41,627 nt of DNA, from NCBI RefSeq assembly GCF_947038635.1, contig NZ_CAMQXC010000005.1, forward strand, positions 1 through 41,627. Reading direction: 5' to 3'. Source of the DNA: an uncultured Cetobacterium sp. GTDB lineage: Bacteria > Fusobacteriota > Fusobacteriia > Fusobacteriales > Fusobacteriaceae. Shown piece after piece: positions 33,931 through 41,465 of the stretch; the first letter of the stretch is position 1; every line of letters starts with the position of its first letter. The position numbers and the translations under genes are program-made. A model generated the notes under the pieces. It searched no databases. It was not told the origin of the DNA and saw only the letters and a program-made list of their open reading frames with translations.

Positions 33931-33956
33931 AAAGGGAACCATTATTGGTTCCCTTT
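33931..33956. terminator. Bidirectional terminator between ispA and phoU
   Basis: 10-bp stem AAAGGGAACC / GGTTCCCTTT (33931-33940, 33947-33956). It overlaps the phoU stop codon. The T-rich flank exists on the minus side (and weaker on the plus side), so it probably serves both converging units. Confidence 0.8.
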
Positions 33957-34634
33957 GCTTTTATTTTGTAACTCAGCTTTTCTAGTATTTTCACCATTTA
34001 AAATATAGATTAAATCACTTGCTAAATGTATTATATGATCTGATAATCTTTCAAATTTTTTATCTAGAAGCATAAGTTCAGATCCTCCAACAACATTATC
34101 TGGAGTTTCCTTCATTTTAGTAAGAAAATAATCAGTATTAGCATTAATTAAATCATCAATCTCTTCATCTAAATAAAGAACATTATATAGTAAACGTACA
34201 TCTTCATTTAAAAAAGCATCTACGTACATTTGGAAAAGACCTCTAATTTTTTTTGCTATTGGTAAAACTTTTTCACTCAAAGCATAAGCTAAATTTGGAG
34301 ATTTTTTTTCAATATCTTTTATTAAAGATAGATTTGCTTTTAAAAGATCTCCCATTCTTTCAAGTACCCTTACACTATTGATAATCATTACTAATTTTCT
34401 AAGATTTTTGGCAGCAGGTTGAAATCTAGCCATTGTAATAATAGAATCTTCTTTTAGTTTTACTTCGAAAGAGTTAATAAAATCTTCTATCATTTTAGCC
34501 TCTCCATAAAGAGTAGGATCAAAGCTATTATTTTGTAACATTTCTAAGTTTACATCGAAATTTCTACCAACATATTTTAATGTTTCTAAATAGTGTTCAT
34601 CTAAAGCTTTTAAAGATTCGTTTAAAGTTCTCAT
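33942..34634 (-). CDS. phoU: Phosphate transport regulator PhoU
   Basis: 230 residues, two repeats of the three-helix PhoU domain with the E/DxxxD-type metal-binding segments (VRVLERMGDLLKANLSLIKD, then FERLSDHIIHLASDLIYI). PhoU relays the state of the Pst transporter to the PhoR kinase and restrains uptake when phosphate is plentiful. Last gene of the minus-strand pst operon, 12 bp after pstB. Starts at ATG 34634 with AAAGGAGA upstream. Confidence 0.93.
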   Translation of the reverse strand: MRTLNESLKALDEHYLETLKYVGRNFDVNLEMLQNNSFDPTLYGEAKMIEDFINSFEVKLKEDSIITMARFQPAAKNLRKLVMIINSVRVLERMGDLLKANLSLIKDIEKKSPNLAYALSEKVLPIAKKIRGLFQMYVDAFLNEDVRLLYNVLYLDEEIDDLINANTDYFLTKMKETPDNVVGGSELMLLDKKFERLSDHIIHLASDLIYILNGENTRKAELQNKSKGNQ

Positions 34635-34646
34635 AAAATCTCCTTT

Positions 34647-35408
34647 TTATCCAAATTTTCCTGTTATATAATCTTCGGTTTTCTTAACGCTAGGTGTTGT
34701 AAAGATTTTTGAAGTTTCATCAAATTCTTCTAAAACACCTTGGTAAAAAAATCCAGTATAGTCAGATATTCTTGATGCTTGTTGCATATTATGAGTAACA
34801 ATAACTATACTATAATTTTTTGCAAGTTCAACAATTAACTCTTCAATTTTAGCAGTTGAAATCGGATCAAGAGCTGAAGTAGGCTCATCCATAAGTAGTA
34901 TTTCAGGGTTAATAGAGATAGCTCTAGCTATACAAAGTCTTTGTTGCTGTCCTCCTGATAGACCAAGAGCAGATTGATGAAGTTTATCTTTTACCTCATC
35001 CCAAAGAGCAACTGCTTTAAGAGATGATTCTACAATTTCATCTAATTTTTTCTTATTAGTTTCTCCATGTAATTTTGGAGCATAAACTAAATTTTCATAA
35101 ATAGATTTAGGGAATGGATTTGGTTTTTGGAAAACCATTCCCACTTTTTTTCTAAGTTCAACAATATCAAACTGTTTATCAAAAATATTTTGATCATCAA
35201 GTAAGATTTCACCTTCATACTTAACACTTGATATAAGATCATTCATTCTATTTAAAGATCTTAAAAATGTTGATTTACCACATCCAGATGGACCAATAAG
35301 TGCTGTAACTTTATTCTTCATTATATCCATATTTATATCTTTTAAAGCTTTGAAATCACCATAATAAAAGTTAAAGTTTTTAACAGATATTCTAACGTCT
35401 TGTTTCAT
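34647..35408 (-). CDS. pstB: Phosphate ABC transporter ATP-binding protein PstB
   Basis: 253 residues. Walker [10 protein letters not shown] (39-47), Q-loop [11 protein letters not shown] typical of PstB, signature [14 protein letters not shown], Walker [13 protein letters not shown], and the switch His in VTHNMQQA. It powers phosphate import by PstC/PstA. Start follows TGGAGGAATAT. Length is typical. Confidence 0.97.
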
Positions 35409-35440: not shown

Positions 35441-36280
35441 TTATTTTTCAAACTTGTTTCTAATATACGCCCCAATCAGGTTAAATCCTACAGTTATAAA
35501 TACAAGAACAAATAGAGTTCCATGCATGTTGCTTTGAGGCATGTTTGGTACTTGTGTTGATATAACGTAAAGATGATAAGGTAATGCCATAACTTGATCA
35601 AATATTGATTGTGGCAAGAATGGCAAATAGAATGCTGCAGCTGTAAATAAAATAGGTGCAGTCTCTCCAGCAGCTCTTGAAATACTTAAAATAACTCCAG
35701 TTGAGATTCCAGGTAACGCAGCAGGAATAACAACTTTAGAAATTGTTTCCCATTTTGTAGCCCCAAGAGCAAGGGATGCTTCTCTTAAACTATTTGGAAC
35801 AGCTAAAAGTGCTTCTCTTGTAGCTGTTATTATAACAGGTAAGCACATAATACCTAAAGTCAAAGATCCAGATAATATTGAAACACCTAATTTGAAATAG
35901 ATAACGAATAATGCCATCCCAAAAAGACCATAGATGATACTAGGTATTCCAGCTAAATTAATAATAGTTAAGTTAATCAATCTTGTTAATATGTTATCTT
36001 TAGAATACTCAACAAGATATACTCCAGTAAAAATTCCAAATGGAACTGAAACAGCTATAGTTCCAAGAGTAAGGTAAATTGTACCTACAATAGCAGGAAA
36101 GATTCCCCCTGCTCTCATTCCTCTTTTAGGAATTTCAGTTAAAAATTCCCAAGAAATTGAAGGAACACCTTTGTATATAATATATCCTAAGATTAAAAAG
36201 ATAGGTACTACTGCTAATAAAGCAACTGCTTTAATAAAGAGTTCAATAGCTACTCCACTTTTTCCTTTTAAAATTTTCAT
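35441..36280 (-). CDS. pstA: Phosphate ABC transporter permease PstA
   Basis: 279 residues with about six TM segments. The EAA cytoplasmic loop reads [37 protein letters not shown] near the C-terminus is typical of PstA. It pairs with PstC to form the inner-membrane channel. 13 bp after pstC. Start is preceded by TAGGAGG. Confidence 0.95.
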
Positions 36281-36293
36281 CTTAATATTCCTC

Positions 36294-37175
36294 CTATTTA
36301 CCCATCAGTTTTCTTGATTTTCTAATATACTTATCTGCAATACTATTTGTTAAGAAGCTTATTGCAAATAATACTAAACCAATAGCGAATAAAGCATGAT
36401 AGTGTTGACTGCCTTGAACAACTTCTCCCATTTCAGCTGCAATGGTAGCTGTTAAAGTTCTAACAGGAGATAGTGGAGATGTTGCCATAATTGGAGCATT
36501 TCCAGTTATCATAAGTACAGCCATAGTTTCACCAATAATTCTTCCAAATCCTAACATAATACCTGCAAAAATTCCAGGAAATGCAGCAGGTAAAAGAACT
36601 TTGAAAACTGTCTCAAGTTTATTAGCTCCAAGAGCTAGAGAAGCTTCACGGTAAGATTTATCAAGAGCATTTAATGCATCGTCAGATAAACTTACTATAG
36701 TAGGAATAGCCATGAAAGAAAGCATAATTCCTCCAGTTAAAGCATTTAGTCCACTAGGTAAATGGAAAGAATCTTTTATAAAACCAGATAAAACATATAG
36801 TCCTAAATAACCTAGTACAACTGAAGGTAAAGCTGACATTGTTTCTATAATAATTTTAATAATTTTTTTAGTTTTCTTATTAGCAAACTCAGACAAATAT
36901 ATTGTAGTTATAATACCAATAGGAACAGAGATACAAAGTGCAACTAATGTAACCCAAAATGATCCAACTAACAGCGGTAAAAGCCCATATTTACCCGAAA
37001 GAGATATCCATTCTGTTCCAAAGAAAAATTTTGAAAGAGGATAATCTTTAAAAAAAGATAAACTATTAACTAAAATGAAAATAAATATAAGTATAACAAT
37101 TAGAATGTTAAAAATTCCAACAACAGAGTGAACTCCATTCATAAAAGAATCTTTAACTTTTCTTATATTATGCAT
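36294..37175 (-). CDS. pstC: Phosphate ABC transporter permease PstC
   Basis: 293 residues with six predicted TM segments. The EAA loop is [29 protein letters not shown] and the GRIIGETMAVLMITGN segment is PstC-specific. First gene of the minus-strand operon. ATG 37175 follows TAGGAGG. It is divergent from pstS across the Pho-box region at 37254-37367. Confidence 0.95.
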   Translation of the reverse strand: MHNIRKVKDSFMNGVHSVVGIFNILIVILIFIFILVNSLSFFKDYPLSKFFFGTEWISLSGKYGLLPLLVGSFWVTLVALCISVPIGIITTIYLSEFANKKTKKIIKIIIETMSALPSVVLGYLGLYVLSGFIKDSFHLPSGLNALTGGIMLSFMAIPTIVSLSDDALNALDKSYREASLALGANKLETVFKVLLPAAFPGIFAGIMLGFGRIIGETMAVLMITGNAPIMATSPLSPVRTLTATIAAEMGEVVQGSQHYHALFAIGLVLFAISFLTNSIADKYIRKSRKLMGK

Positions 37176-37253: not shown

Positions 37254-37307
37254 ATAATATATGCTACTTGTTAAAATAAGATTAATTGTATGTAAAAAAA
37301 CTGTAAA
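37254..37307 (-). promoter_or_regulatory. Pho-box array and -10 for pstC (minus strand)
   Basis: Read on the minus strand: TTTACAG (37307-37301), TTTACAT (37296-37290), TTAATCT (37285-37279), TTAACAA (37274-37268), each 11 bp apart, then 8 bp, then TATTAT (37259-37254) as -10. PhoP/PhoB-type regulators bind direct repeats of such 7-mers (TTAACA-like in Bacillus) at 11-bp spacing in place of a -35. The third box is the weakest. Geometry mirrors the plus-strand array exactly. Confidence 0.65.
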
Positions 37308-37331
37308 ATTTTTTTTACAGTTTTTTTACAT
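37290..37331. repeat. Perfect 42-bp palindrome between the divergent Pho arrays
   Basis: 37290-37308 is the exact reverse complement of 37313-37331, around a TTTT centre (axis 37310.5). Each arm carries two Pho-like 7-mers at 11-bp pitch. As RNA it would also form a 19-bp hairpin, but it has the wrong place for a terminator of any gene. Confidence 0.95.
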
Positions 37332-37367
37332 TAAATTTAAATTAGATTAACATTAATGTTCTATACT
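37314..37367 (+). promoter_or_regulatory. Pho-box array and -10 for pstS (plus strand)
   Basis: TTTACAG (37314), TTTACAT (37325), TTTAAAT (37336), TTAACAT (37347): four 7-mers at exactly 11 bp. They are followed after 8 bp by TATACT (37362-37367) as -10, with no separate -35. This is the arrangement of PhoB/PhoP-activated promoters. The regulator is presumably the PhoB encoded at 38347. Confidence 0.72.
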
Positions 37368-37428: not shown

Positions 37429-38265
37429 ATGAAAATGAAAAGGTTTTTTCTAATGGGGTTAATGGCTATGATGGGAGTATGTTCAACAACAGCAATGGCA
37501 TCAAAAGTTGTTCAAGTAAAAGGATCAGATACAATAGTAAATGTTTCTCAATATATTGCTGAAGAGTATATGGGTAAAAATAAAGATGCTAGAATTGCTG
37601 TTACAGGTGGAGGATCTGGAGTGGGAATTTCATCTTTAATAAATGGAACTGCAGATATAGGAATGGCATCTAGAAATATTAAAGATAAAGAGATGAAAGC
37701 AGCAGAAGAGAAAGGGTTAAAATTAAAAGAAGTTGTTTTAGGATATGATGGTATAACAGTAATAGTAAATGATTCAAATAAAGTAAATGATTTAACACAC
37801 CAAGATTTAGCTAAAATCTTTAGAGGAGAGATTACTAATTGGAAAGAGCTTGGTGGAGATGATGCTACAATAGTTGTTTTATCAAGAGATTCATCATCTG
37901 GAACACATGAATTTTTTAAAGAACACATTATAAGAGAAGAAAATACAAAAAAAGATGCAGAATATGGAAAGAATACTCTATATATGCCTTCAAATGAAGC
38001 TATAAAACAAGAAGCAAAGAATAATAAATATGCAATTGGATATATAGGAATGGGATACATGGACAAATCTGTAAAGAGCTTAAAAGTGGATTCAATAGAG
38101 CCTAGTGTACAAAATGTAGCGGATAAAAAATACCCAATAGCAAGAGAAATCTATTGGTATGTTATAGATACAGATAATAAAGATGTAAATGGATTAGTTG
38201 ACTTTGCATTATCAGCAGATGGACAAAGAGTAGTTGCTGATGAGGGATTCGTTCCAGCAAAATAG
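37429..38265 (+). CDS. pstS: Phosphate-binding protein PstS
   Basis: 278 residues. Signal peptide (cleavage likely at AMA-SK, about residue 24-25); the Cys in MGVCS is not in a good lipobox. The mature protein opens with VQVKGSDTIVNVSQYIAEEY, then GGGSGVGISSLINGTADIGMASR and SRDSSSGTHEFF, the phosphate-binding segments of the PstS family. It captures phosphate in the periplasm for PstCAB. ATG 37429 follows TAGGAGGAG. It is divergent from pstC and ends in a terminator before phoB. Confidence 0.95.
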   Translation: MKMKRFFLMGLMAMMGVCSTTAMASKVVQVKGSDTIVNVSQYIAEEYMGKNKDARIAVTGGGSGVGISSLINGTADIGMASRNIKDKEMKAAEEKGLKLKEVVLGYDGITVIVNDSNKVNDLTHQDLAKIFRGEITNWKELGGDDATIVVLSRDSSSGTHEFFKEHIIREENTKKDAEYGKNTLYMPSNEAIKQEAKNNKYAIGYIGMGYMDKSVKSLKVDSIEPSVQNVADKKYPIAREIYWYVIDTDNKDVNGLVDFALSADGQRVVADEGFVPAK

Positions 38266-38272
38266 TAGATAT

Positions 38273-38304
38273 AGGTGTCCTAATGAAAAAAGGACACCTT
38301 TTTT
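38273..38304 (+). terminator. Intrinsic terminator after pstS
   Basis: 8-bp stem AGGTGTCC (38273-38280) / GGACACCT (38292-38299), 11-nt loop, then T5. It separates pstS from phoBR. Confidence 0.88.
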
Positions 38305-38311
38305 ATATTTA

Positions 38312-38320
38312 TGATATAAT
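38312..38320 (+). promoter_or_regulatory. Extended -10 for phoBR
   Basis: TGATATAAT, an exact extended -10 placed 26 bp before phoB. The -35 position lies inside the terminator and is not recognisable. No Pho-like repeats are seen here, so phoBR may be basal. Confidence 0.5.
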
Positions 38321-38346: not shown

Positions 38347-39024
38347 ATGAAGGTACTAGTAGTTGAAGATGATTTAGAGATACAGGCGTTAATAAACTAT
38401 TATTTCACAAAAGAGGGCTATAAAGTAACTGTGGCTTCTGATGGATTAGAAGGTTTGAAGTATTTAAAAAAAGACAAACATGAATTAATCATCTTAGATT
38501 TAATGTTACCTAATTTAGATGGAATAAATTTTACGAAGATTGTAAAAGAGATGGAAGATGAGTATGGGACTCCGTATATAGTTATGTTAACTGCTAAGAC
38601 AGAGGTTGAAGATGTATTAAAAGGTTTAGAGATTGGAGCAGATGACTATATGAAAAAACCATTTGATCCAAGAGAGCTTTTACTGAGAGGAAAAAAACTT
38701 CTTAATCAACAGGAAAAAAATAAAAAAATAAGAAATAGATTTTTAGATTTAGAGATAGATGAAGATAAACATTTGGTTACAAATAATGGTGAAGAAGTAG
38801 AGTTATCTAAGAAAGAGTATGATTTACTTTTACTTTTAGTTAAAAATAAAGGGATTGTAGTAAGTAGAGAGAAAATTTTAGATAAAGTTTGGGGAAGTAA
38901 TTATTATTCAGGAGATAGAACTGTAGATGTGTACATATCTAAATTGAGAGAAAAGATACCATTTTTAACAGAGTGTATAAAAACAGTGAAAGGAGTAGGA
39001 TACAGATTAGAAGAAAAGAGATAA
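38347..39024 (+). CDS. phoB: PhoB-type response regulator
   Basis: 225 residues. Receiver domain: acidic pocket VVEDD, phosphoacceptor Asp51 in LILDLMLPNLDG, MLTAK, and KKPFDP. Then an OmpR/PhoB winged-helix domain (LSKKEYDLLLLLVKNKG, WGSNYYSGDRTVDVYISKLREKI, VKGVGYRLE). It is read as the phosphate regulator because it sits between pstS and a PhoR-like kinase. Start follows AAGGAGAGA. The reading frame of the kinase overlaps its end. Confidence 0.9.
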   Translation: MKVLVVEDDLEIQALINYYFTKEGYKVTVASDGLEGLKYLKKDKHELIILDLMLPNLDGINFTKIVKEMEDEYGTPYIVMLTAKTEVEDVLKGLEIGADDYMKKPFDPRELLLRGKKLLNQQEKNKKIRNRFLDLEIDEDKHLVTNNGEEVELSKKEYDLLLLLVKNKGIVVSREKILDKVWGSNYYSGDRTVDVYISKLREKIPFLTECIKTVKGVGYRLEEKR

Positions 39025-40697
39025 TTGCTTTATTCTTTATAGTTATGATTGAGATAATTTTTGTAATAACTAATATATCATTTTTATCTCACTTATATAA
39101 AGATGGAGTGAAAAATAGCTTAAAAGAAAATGTTTTTATCATATCTAATTTAATAAAGGAGTATGACAAAAAAGATTATCAACAAATATTTGAAAATTCT
39201 GATATGAGATTTAATATAATCGGCTTAAATGGAAGAGTTATATATGATTCAAGAAAATATAATGAAGAAGGAAAGTTAGAGAATCATAGCAATAGAAGAG
39301 AAGTTTTAGAAGTTAAAAATACTGGAATAGGATTTGATATAAGAAAAAGTAGTATTTCAGATGAGACTATGGCATATTATGCAGTTGAAAGAACTAATAA
39401 AGAGGGAGAAAAAGTAGTTGTAAGAGTTTCTAAAAATTATGGAGATACTTTAAAAATGCTAAAGATAATTCTGGTTGCAGAACTTTTATTTTTTACATTT
39501 TTGAATTTTATAATACATGCTTTTTATAAAAAATATTTAAAAAGAGATTTGTATAGAAAGATAGAAGTTATTGAAGATTTTTTAAAAGAAAAAGGAGATG
39601 GAGAAAATTTATATTTTGAAAAAGATCCGTGGATTCTAAATTTATGGGATATTGTTCAAAAGTGGCAAAAACAAAATTTAGAAAATATAGTTAGCCTTAA
39701 TAGAGAGAAAAGAATTTTGCATCAAATAATAACTTCGATAGATTCTTCTATATGTCTTTTTGATGAAAATTTACAATTGATAATTAAAAACAGTAGATTT
39801 AATTATCTTTATGAAAAGGACAAAATGAGCTATTTGAATTTGATAAAAGATATCGAAATTATAGATATAGTAAAAAGAAGTGTAAGAGAGAAGCAAAATC
39901 AAAAATCAGAAGTTTATATACTGAGATTAAAAAGATATTTTAGTGTGAGTGTTAAATTTTTAGATCAAGACCAAAGATATTTGTTATCTATAAAAGATAT
40001 AACTCAAACTAAAGGAATGATAGAAGTTCAGAAAACATTTATAAGTAATGTAAGTCATGAGTTGAAAACACCTTTAACAAATATAAAAGGTTATGTAATT
40101 GCATTAGAAGATGCACCTGAACCATTGAAAGTTCAGTTTATAAAAACTATAAAAAATAATATAGACAAATTAGAAAATATAATTGCAGATTTTTTGAATA
40201 TAAGCAAAATAGAAAGCTCAAATATTGTTAATATCGAAAAAGTTCCAGTAGCAAGATTAAAAACTGAGTTACATGCAATATTAAATGAAAGAATAAAAAC
40301 AAGTGATGCTAATATAACTTATAGTCTAAACCTTTTAAATAAAGAAGGAGAGTTAAAAATTGATTTTGAGAAAGTCTTAACTATTTTAAAAAACTTAGTT
40401 GAAAATGCTATTATATATAGAGGAGATTTAAGACCTGAAATAGAGATTTCAATAATAGAAACGAAAAGTATGTATAAAATAGGTGTAAAAGATAATGGAG
40501 TAGGAATTTCTCCAGAAGATGTGGAGAAAATATTTGAAAGATTTTATAGAGTAGATAAAGCTAGAACAAGTAATAAGGCTGGAACCGGACTGGGGCTTTC
40601 TATTGTAAAAGAACTTGTAGAAAGATGTGGAGGAAAAATAGATGTTATTTCTAAAGAAGGAAAGGGAACTATTTTTATATTTACAATCTTGAAATAA
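38973..40697 (+). CDS. phoR: PhoR-type sensor histidine kinase
   Basis: Up to 574 residues: TM1 near 16-40, an extracytoplasmic loop (about 45-160), TM2 near 163-185, a linker with a PAS-like region (near 250-330), HisKA with the phosphorylated His in SNVSHELKTPLTN near 362, and the HATPase domain with NLVENAI (N box), DNGVGISPEDVEKIFERFYRVDKA and GTGLGLSIVKELV. It phosphorylates PhoB in low phosphate. The start is uncertain. The frame opens at GTG 38973 inside phoB. The only good ribosome site, AAAGGAG at 38989-38995, points to non-standard codons around 39006. The first ATG, 39045, would cut into TM1. Confidence 0.88.
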   Translation: MYKNSERSRIQIRRKEIIALFFIVMIEIIFVITNISFLSHLYKDGVKNSLKENVFIISNLIKEYDKKDYQQIFENSDMRFNIIGLNGRVIYDSRKYNEEGKLENHSNRREVLEVKNTGIGFDIRKSSISDETMAYYAVERTNKEGEKVVVRVSKNYGDTLKMLKIILVAELLFFTFLNFIIHAFYKKYLKRDLYRKIEVIEDFLKEKGDGENLYFEKDPWILNLWDIVQKWQKQNLENIVSLNREKRILHQIITSIDSSICLFDENLQLIIKNSRFNYLYEKDKMSYLNLIKDIEIIDIVKRSVREKQNQKSEVYILRLKRYFSVSVKFLDQDQRYLLSIKDITQTKGMIEVQKTFISNVSHELKTPLTNIKGYVIALEDAPEPLKVQFIKTIKNNIDKLENIIADFLNISKIESSNIVNIEKVPVARLKTELHAILNERIKTSDANITYSLNLLNKEGELKIDFEKVLTILKNLVENAIIYRGDLRPEIEISIIETKSMYKIGVKDNGVGISPEDVEKIFERFYRVDKARTSNKAGTGLGLSIVKELVERCGGKIDVISKEGKGTIFIFTILK

Positions 40698-40763: not shown

Positions 40764-41465
40764 ATGGCTAAGATAAAAAATATAGTAGTTGCACATGCAG
40801 CTCAAATGAGTCAACAAGTAGGAGGAGCTGTAGATATATTTGGCTCTTTTGATAATATAATTCAACCAATATTTCCTCATCCTATGATGAGATTATCAAT
40901 TGTTTTAACTTTTGAGGAGATTACAAAACCAACAGTTTTTGAAGTTAGATTGAATGGACCTGATGATGATTTAATATCAAGAGGAGAGTTAACACCAATG
41001 GTAGATCCTTTAGGTGTTGGAAAAAAGATTGTAGATATTGATAGATTTTTAGTTAAAACAAGAGGAAGATACACAATAGATATATTTGAAAAAGAGGGAG
41101 AAGAGCTAAAGTTTTTAAAAACAGAAACTTTATTTATAGCAGAGTATCCACCACAAAGAAAATTTAGTCCAGAACAAGTAGAAGAGATTTCTAAAAATGA
41201 TGAGTTAATTAGAAGTGTAAAAACAGAATTTAAACCGTTTGGATTTGAGAATGCTATAAAAATTCAACATAATTTATTAAAAGATGCTCCTATAGAAGAT
41301 GGATTCTTAGCTATTCCTGAAAATGACAGATTAGAGTTTGATGGTCAAGTAGTAGAATTAACTGGAGTTAGAAGACAAATTGAGTGGATGTTTGGAAATC
41401 CTATTCCAAAAGAGGAAGAAAATAAAGAGGAAGTAACTGAAACAACAGGTACTGAAGAAAAATAG
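40764..41465 (+). CDS. Conserved hypothetical protein (DUF6941-like N-terminal part)
   Basis: 233 residues, no signal peptide or TM. The N-terminal half (AHAAQMSQQVGGAVDIFGSFDNI, PHPMMRLSIVLTF, then FEVRLNGPDDDL) looks like the beta-rich DUF6941-type domain, a family of unknown function. The C-terminal part is acidic and ends in a Glu/Thr-rich tail (EEENKEEVTETTGTEEK). It stands alone, with its own promoter, an AAGGGGGA ribosome site and a strong terminator, directly before a tRNA gene. I cannot assign a role. Confidence 0.5.
   Translation: MAKIKNIVVAHAAQMSQQVGGAVDIFGSFDNIIQPIFPHPMMRLSIVLTFEEITKPTVFEVRLNGPDDDLISRGELTPMVDPLGVGKKIVDIDRFLVKTRGRYTIDIFEKEGEELKFLKTETLFIAEYPPQRKFSPEQVEEISKNDELIRSVKTEFKPFGFENAIKIQHNLLKDAPIEDGFLAIPENDRLEFDGQVVELTGVRRQIEWMFGNPIPKEEENKEEVTETTGTEEK

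Follow-up and report, generated by a model that had tools for sequence, protein, structure and literature searches.

The window, the whole stretch of 41,627 nucleotides that we analysed, is contig 5 in a draft genome of Cetobacterium (Fusobacteriaceae) of 2.33 Mb, and the region of interest within it is the intergenic DNA between pstC and pstS, two genes that are transcribed away from each other (Table 1). The response regulator encoded behind pstS scored 190.7 bits against the PhoB equivalog model, the cut-off of which is 296.2 bits, and the real start of the adjoining histidine kinase gene is likely to lie slightly downstream of the position given. From the sequence we also read a terminator-like hairpin with a long loop and a T run 3′ of pstS (approximately 38271-38305) and a promoter-like TATAAT at 38315-38320, ahead of the response regulator gene. 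Because the hairpin and the TATAAT intervene, control of the regulator gene by the pstS promoter would need read-through, and this gene may be only partly under that promoter. The next gene after the histidine kinase (40764-41465) matched DUF6941 slightly below the Pfam cut-off.

Table 1. Genes and predicted promoter elements of the pstC–pstS region (positions within the window).
Feature	Position	Strand	Remarks
phoU	33942-34634	-	leftward pst operon
pstB	34647-35408	-	leftward pst operon
pstA	35441-36280	-	leftward pst operon
pstC	36294-37175	-	leading gene of leftward operon, followed by pstA, pstB, phoU
candidate -10 of pstC promoter, TATTAT	37254-37259	-	8 bp past box 4
minus box 4, TTAACAA	37268-37274	-	
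minus box 3, TTAATCT	37279-37285	-	
minus box 2, TTTACAT	37290-37296	-	conserved
minus box 1, TTTACAG	37301-37307	-	conserved
imperfect palindrome	37290-37331		19-bp perfect arms, TTTT centre
centre between inner boxes	37308-37313		6 bp, A/T only, axis 37310.5
plus box 1, TTTACAG	37314-37320	+	conserved
plus box 2, TTTACAT	37325-37331	+	conserved
plus box 3, TTTAAAT	37336-37342	+	box 3 has a separate, TTAATA-like consensus
plus box 4, TTAACAT	37347-37353	+	
candidate -10 of pstS promoter, TATACT	37362-37367	+	8 bp past box 4
pstS	37429-38265	+	leading gene of rightward unit, followed by regulator and kinase
OmpR/PhoB-family response regulator	38347-39024	+	top family model PhoB, under equivalog cut-off
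histidine kinase	38973-40697	+	top family models PnpS and PhoR, under cut-off

A sequence-only reading of this region had proposed four 7-mers running in each direction at an 11-bp pitch about a common axis at 37310.5, with a -10 hexamer 8 bp beyond the last 7-mer on either side, each matching TATAAT at five of six positions; all of these elements were confirmed on the sequence. Pho boxes are defined as 7-mers separated by 4-bp spacers, which gives the 11-bp pitch (PMC4415409), and both arms of the region consist of such tandem motifs, each array standing immediately 5′ of a -10 in the place of a -35 element. The inner two boxes of both sides had additionally been described as a perfect 42-bp palindrome (37290-37331). 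That description was too strong, as 38 of the 42 positions are symmetric and the TTTT centre is not. With its 19-bp arms the palindrome exceeds every other inverted repeat in the 41.6-kb window when loops are limited to 8, the runner-up having arms of 17, and in a sister species (L002, PstS 98% identical) the corresponding 42-mer is a perfect palindrome.

We compared the DNA between pstC and pstS in 33 divergent loci, of which 10 belong to Cetobacterium and the others to five further genera of the Fusobacteriaceae. A four-box matrix built from nine Cetobacterium loci was run along each strand separately with the distance between the two arrays left free. Opposite arrays about one axis were found with a gap of 6 bp in 31 of the 33 loci (30 of 32 if one member of the near-identical pair L013/L131 is removed); the two exceptions were G001, with 3 bp, and G012, with 5 bp. 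One arm was weak (L143, plus strand, z 3.1). A fit of the axis with a fixed template failed at L010 and L014, for which the free-gap fit gave 3 and 5 bp. The motif TAnnnT stood exactly 8 bp beyond box 4 in 64/64 arms, and the second-best offset was seen in 14/64; the array fit had made no use of the -10. An adjacent regulator-kinase pair was present in nearly all divergent loci, directly behind pstS.

Overall, the 11-bp pitch, the mirror placement and the -10 spacing postulated for the relatives were retained in six genera, whereas the perfection of the palindrome was mostly not conserved, several other species being nowhere near it. Across the relatives the complementarity of the arms, counted over the inner 21 bp, ranged from 21/21 down to 9/21. 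The two values at the bottom of this range come from the loci that the rigid template misfitted and for which the free-gap fit gave 3 and 5 bp. The conserved feature is the geometry and not the palindromic sequence. Given its composition, the palindrome strand has a very stable fold (z -6.4; -17.9 kcal/mol as DNA), as would suit a nucleic-acid hairpin that works as a terminator, attenuator or cruciform and in which the boxes are incidental. The palindrome, however, sits 5′ of both -10s, hence it is absent from either predicted transcript, and many relatives lose the arm complementarity yet keep the boxes and their spacing. Because of this location upstream of both -10s and the loss of arm pairing in relatives, the hairpin or terminator reading was dropped, and we attach next to no probability to it.

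The single consensus TTWAMAT derived earlier for all boxes turned out to be too loose, and the 63 arms examined call for forms specific to each box, namely TTTACA for box 1, TTTACAT for box 2, a distinct TTAATA-like form for box 3 and TTWACA for box 4. The Pho core of B. subtilis consists of four TTWACA-type repeats.

We searched genomes for the ordered four-box array followed by TAnnnT. In the 2.33-Mb genome studied here, four matches were obtained at up to three mismatches and none with the reversed-pattern control; they precede pstS, pstC, the gene of a pyrophosphatase that probably carries a signal peptide, and a gene for a solute-binding protein at a contig end. Among 61 Fusobacteriales genomes, 84 matches in 33 genomes were found at up to two mismatches, again with none in the reversed control; both yields are far above chance. 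In sixteen further stretches, the genes behind the motif encode alkaline phosphatase, PhnG, a phosphonate-binding protein, a UgpA-like permease, GDPD, a PHP-domain protein, a Na/Pi cotransporter, PstS and PstB. The motif is common to phosphate-acquisition genes genome-wide, and the scan retrieved an unmistakable phosphate-starvation gene set; at the level of predicted gene content, we regard the Pho reading as secure. Because a loose pattern of two boxes hardly rises above background in DNA as AT-rich as this (545 matches vs 474 ± 30 in shuffles), the signal lies in the ordered four-box array together with the -10. A loose three-box pattern, with 78 matches vs 53 in the control, was dropped. 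The outcome provides a Pho-box consensus and a working predictor of the regulon for Fusobacteriaceae.

In a Cetobacterium relative (L197, G009:C1:1029000-1047400), four predicted Pho arrays lie in one cluster, where they precede the genes for alkaline phosphatase, PhnG, a phosphonate-binding protein and a second solute-binding protein; judging by its predicted genes, this cluster is a phosphonate/phosphate scavenging island. At L100 (801-1457, G000:C157), an inorganic pyrophosphatase with a probable signal peptide is encoded under a one-way Pho array. It was found in just two of the 61 genomes of the family, the second (L160) having a partial array.

In genera with co-directional pst genes, the same four-box array stands before these genes at the same distance from the -10 in one direction only. 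The one-way array is therefore the standard Pho promoter of the family. Most of the one-way arrays lack an inverted box at gap 6, and a search upstream of them recovered none that was consistent; the mirror thus belongs to the divergent arrangement. Individual promoters have features of their own. At the pstC promoters of L154 (approximately 2370-2420) and L146 (approximately 2390-2420), a far-side inverted box occurs at gap 4 or 2, and the divergent gene at L154 resembles a pseudopilin gene. One genus (L136, L139, L141 and L155) has one-way pstS arrays with two extra TTTACA boxes upstream, which face the same direction and are out of register with the array.

In other genera, one-way arrays built in the same manner do without a mirror, which speaks for the alternative that the divergent loci contain two independent, abutting Pho promoters, each array working alone. 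The short centre would then reflect a compact intergenic region, and its A/T content would be a matter of composition or of an A/T tract used by the alpha subunits of both polymerases. We consider this quite possible. Arrays that act independently and share an A/T tract compete seriously with any step across the axis, although not with the reading as Pho promoters. The tolerance of 3- and 5-bp gaps also speaks for independent arrays. So does a parsimony count of length changes in the leaders, by which 2.8 changes would be expected in 6 bp and two were seen; this count gave no signal of constraint, and it is non-significant because the leader lengths saturate the method. On the other side, the flanking leaders vary at almost every species and the centre does not, with 25 and 23 length values for the leaders of 32 loci vs three for the centre, and the G+C content of the centre is 2% vs 20% in the other spacers. 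An indel rate calibrated on eleven close pairs likewise argues against independence, since approximately 12 indels would be expected in 6 bp of neutral DNA and two were seen (P ~6 × 10−4). As this rate is sensitive to the tree used and to the way gaps are scored in A/T-rich sequence, we take it as moderate support for selection on the length of the axis.

The explanation that we favour, and hold to be very likely, is that of a bidirectional phosphate-starvation promoter, on which a PhoB-type regulator occupies the mirrored arrays and drives both pst units. Upon phosphate limitation, the phosphorylated regulator would bind the two outward-pointing, head-to-tail four-box arrays, and each array would stand in for the -35 element and bring RNA polymerase to the -10 located 8 bp beyond. 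The leftward output would be pstC-pstA-pstB-phoU and the rightward output pstS, from which transcription may read through into the genes of the regulator and the kinase. One regulator thus probably switches on both sets of phosphate-uptake genes together. That this would occur in a fixed ratio, as had been proposed, does not follow from the sequence because the two arms are unlike in their -10 hexamers, their leaders and their box 3. Points that weigh against the favoured explanation are the gaps of 3 and 5 bp that accompany intact arrays, the variable gaps of mirrored cores in clostridia (described below), the parsimony count with its lack of signal for a constrained axis length, and the score of the regulator, which is under the PhoB equivalog cut-off.

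The binding protein would most likely be the product of 38347-39024. Binding of the boxes by an OmpR/PhoB-family regulator other than the adjacent one would fit that shortfall in score, and co-directional genera keep the boxes with no close phoB-like gene in the stretch examined. We nevertheless judge it improbable, given that the regulator-kinase pair immediately follows pstS at all but a few of the divergent loci and that PhoB is the top model of the adjacent regulator and PnpS and PhoR are those of its kinase.

Because the arrays point outwards, the two inner subunits would meet at the axis with their upstream faces. The 6-bp A/T centre would then most likely hold these two subunits head-to-head, and the arrays would fill cooperatively as an eight-subunit complex. 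Contact across the axis between the inner subunits is a step that we propose tentatively. Pho-type 7-mer repeats are occupied by dimers in tandem, the spacing of which is strict, and in the structures of OmpR/PhoB-family proteins the subunits stack head-to-tail, with a strict spacer of 4 bp and with the wing reaching the downstream minor groove (PMC4832192). In this family, two-fold dimers can be formed by the receiver domains (PMC4415409), whereas those in the M. tuberculosis PhoP complex have a tandem arrangement (PMC4832192), and two-fold receiver dimers vs tandem DNA-binding domains constitute a long-noted symmetry mismatch (PMC4415409, PMC4832192). Given this capacity of the receiver domains, they could plausibly make a two-fold contact at the dyad of the DNA, which would entail a fixed gap. 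The axis could accordingly be imagined as a docking site, at which the innermost PhoB receivers pair two-fold across the dyad and the resulting eight-subunit complex switches both units, the shorter clostridial cores being an independent version; this more specific picture is doubtful. A mirrored site would be a place where the symmetries of the receiver and DNA-binding domains could both be met. The divergent loci offer a family-wide natural test of whether PhoB-type regulators, which are known tandem binders, also join head-to-head.

A pattern scan of 84,980 genomes with the axis gap left free returned 64 loci. A gap of 6 was not globally enriched (five of the 64 loci, four of these being Fusobacteriaceae pst loci), and the other gaps were scattered or belonged to a clostridial Na/Pi group. 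That group comprises thirteen mirrored loci upstream of Na/Pi cotransporter-like genes (L043, L045, L047, L061, L062, L066, L077, L079, L085, L087, L089, L092 and L094), and all ten that we checked by Pfam were confirmed. Like the Cetobacterium region, the clostridial cores have two TTTACA boxes at an 11-bp pitch on each side of the axis and stand before a phosphate transport gene. They differ in that the axis gap is 3 or 8-11 instead of 6, the far arm is mostly without boxes 3-4 and a -10, and there is no close divergent gene. Because the clostridial loci carry them, mirrored Pho-type cores are not unique to Fusobacteriaceae; the full four-plus-four form with two promoters and a near-constant axis was seen only in this family. 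A literature search, the reach of which left out most subscription papers, turned up neither the mirrored form nor divergent Pho boxes, nor any study of Pho regulation or Pho boxes in Fusobacterium, Cetobacterium or Fusobacteriaceae.

The Pho boxes recognized by PhoB in E. coli and by PhoP in B. subtilis resemble those of Cetobacterium in the 7-bp motif with a 4-bp spacer, the 11-bp pitch (PMC4415409) and the location just 5′ of the -10. In contrast to these systems, Cetobacterium, a member of another phylum, has two full mirrored arrays with a shared centre and its own box 3 consensus. The bidirectional phoRP-phoU region of Streptomyces shares with Cetobacterium the Pho-regulated divergent promoters and the four 11-nt repeat units, but all of its repeats face phoU and there is no mirror (PMC6283541). 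Pho boxes and bidirectional Pho promoters are thus already known, and because the sites of OmpR/PhoB-family regulators are described as direct repeats, the unusual part of the Fusobacteriaceae arrangement is the head-to-head axis with its near-fixed spacing.
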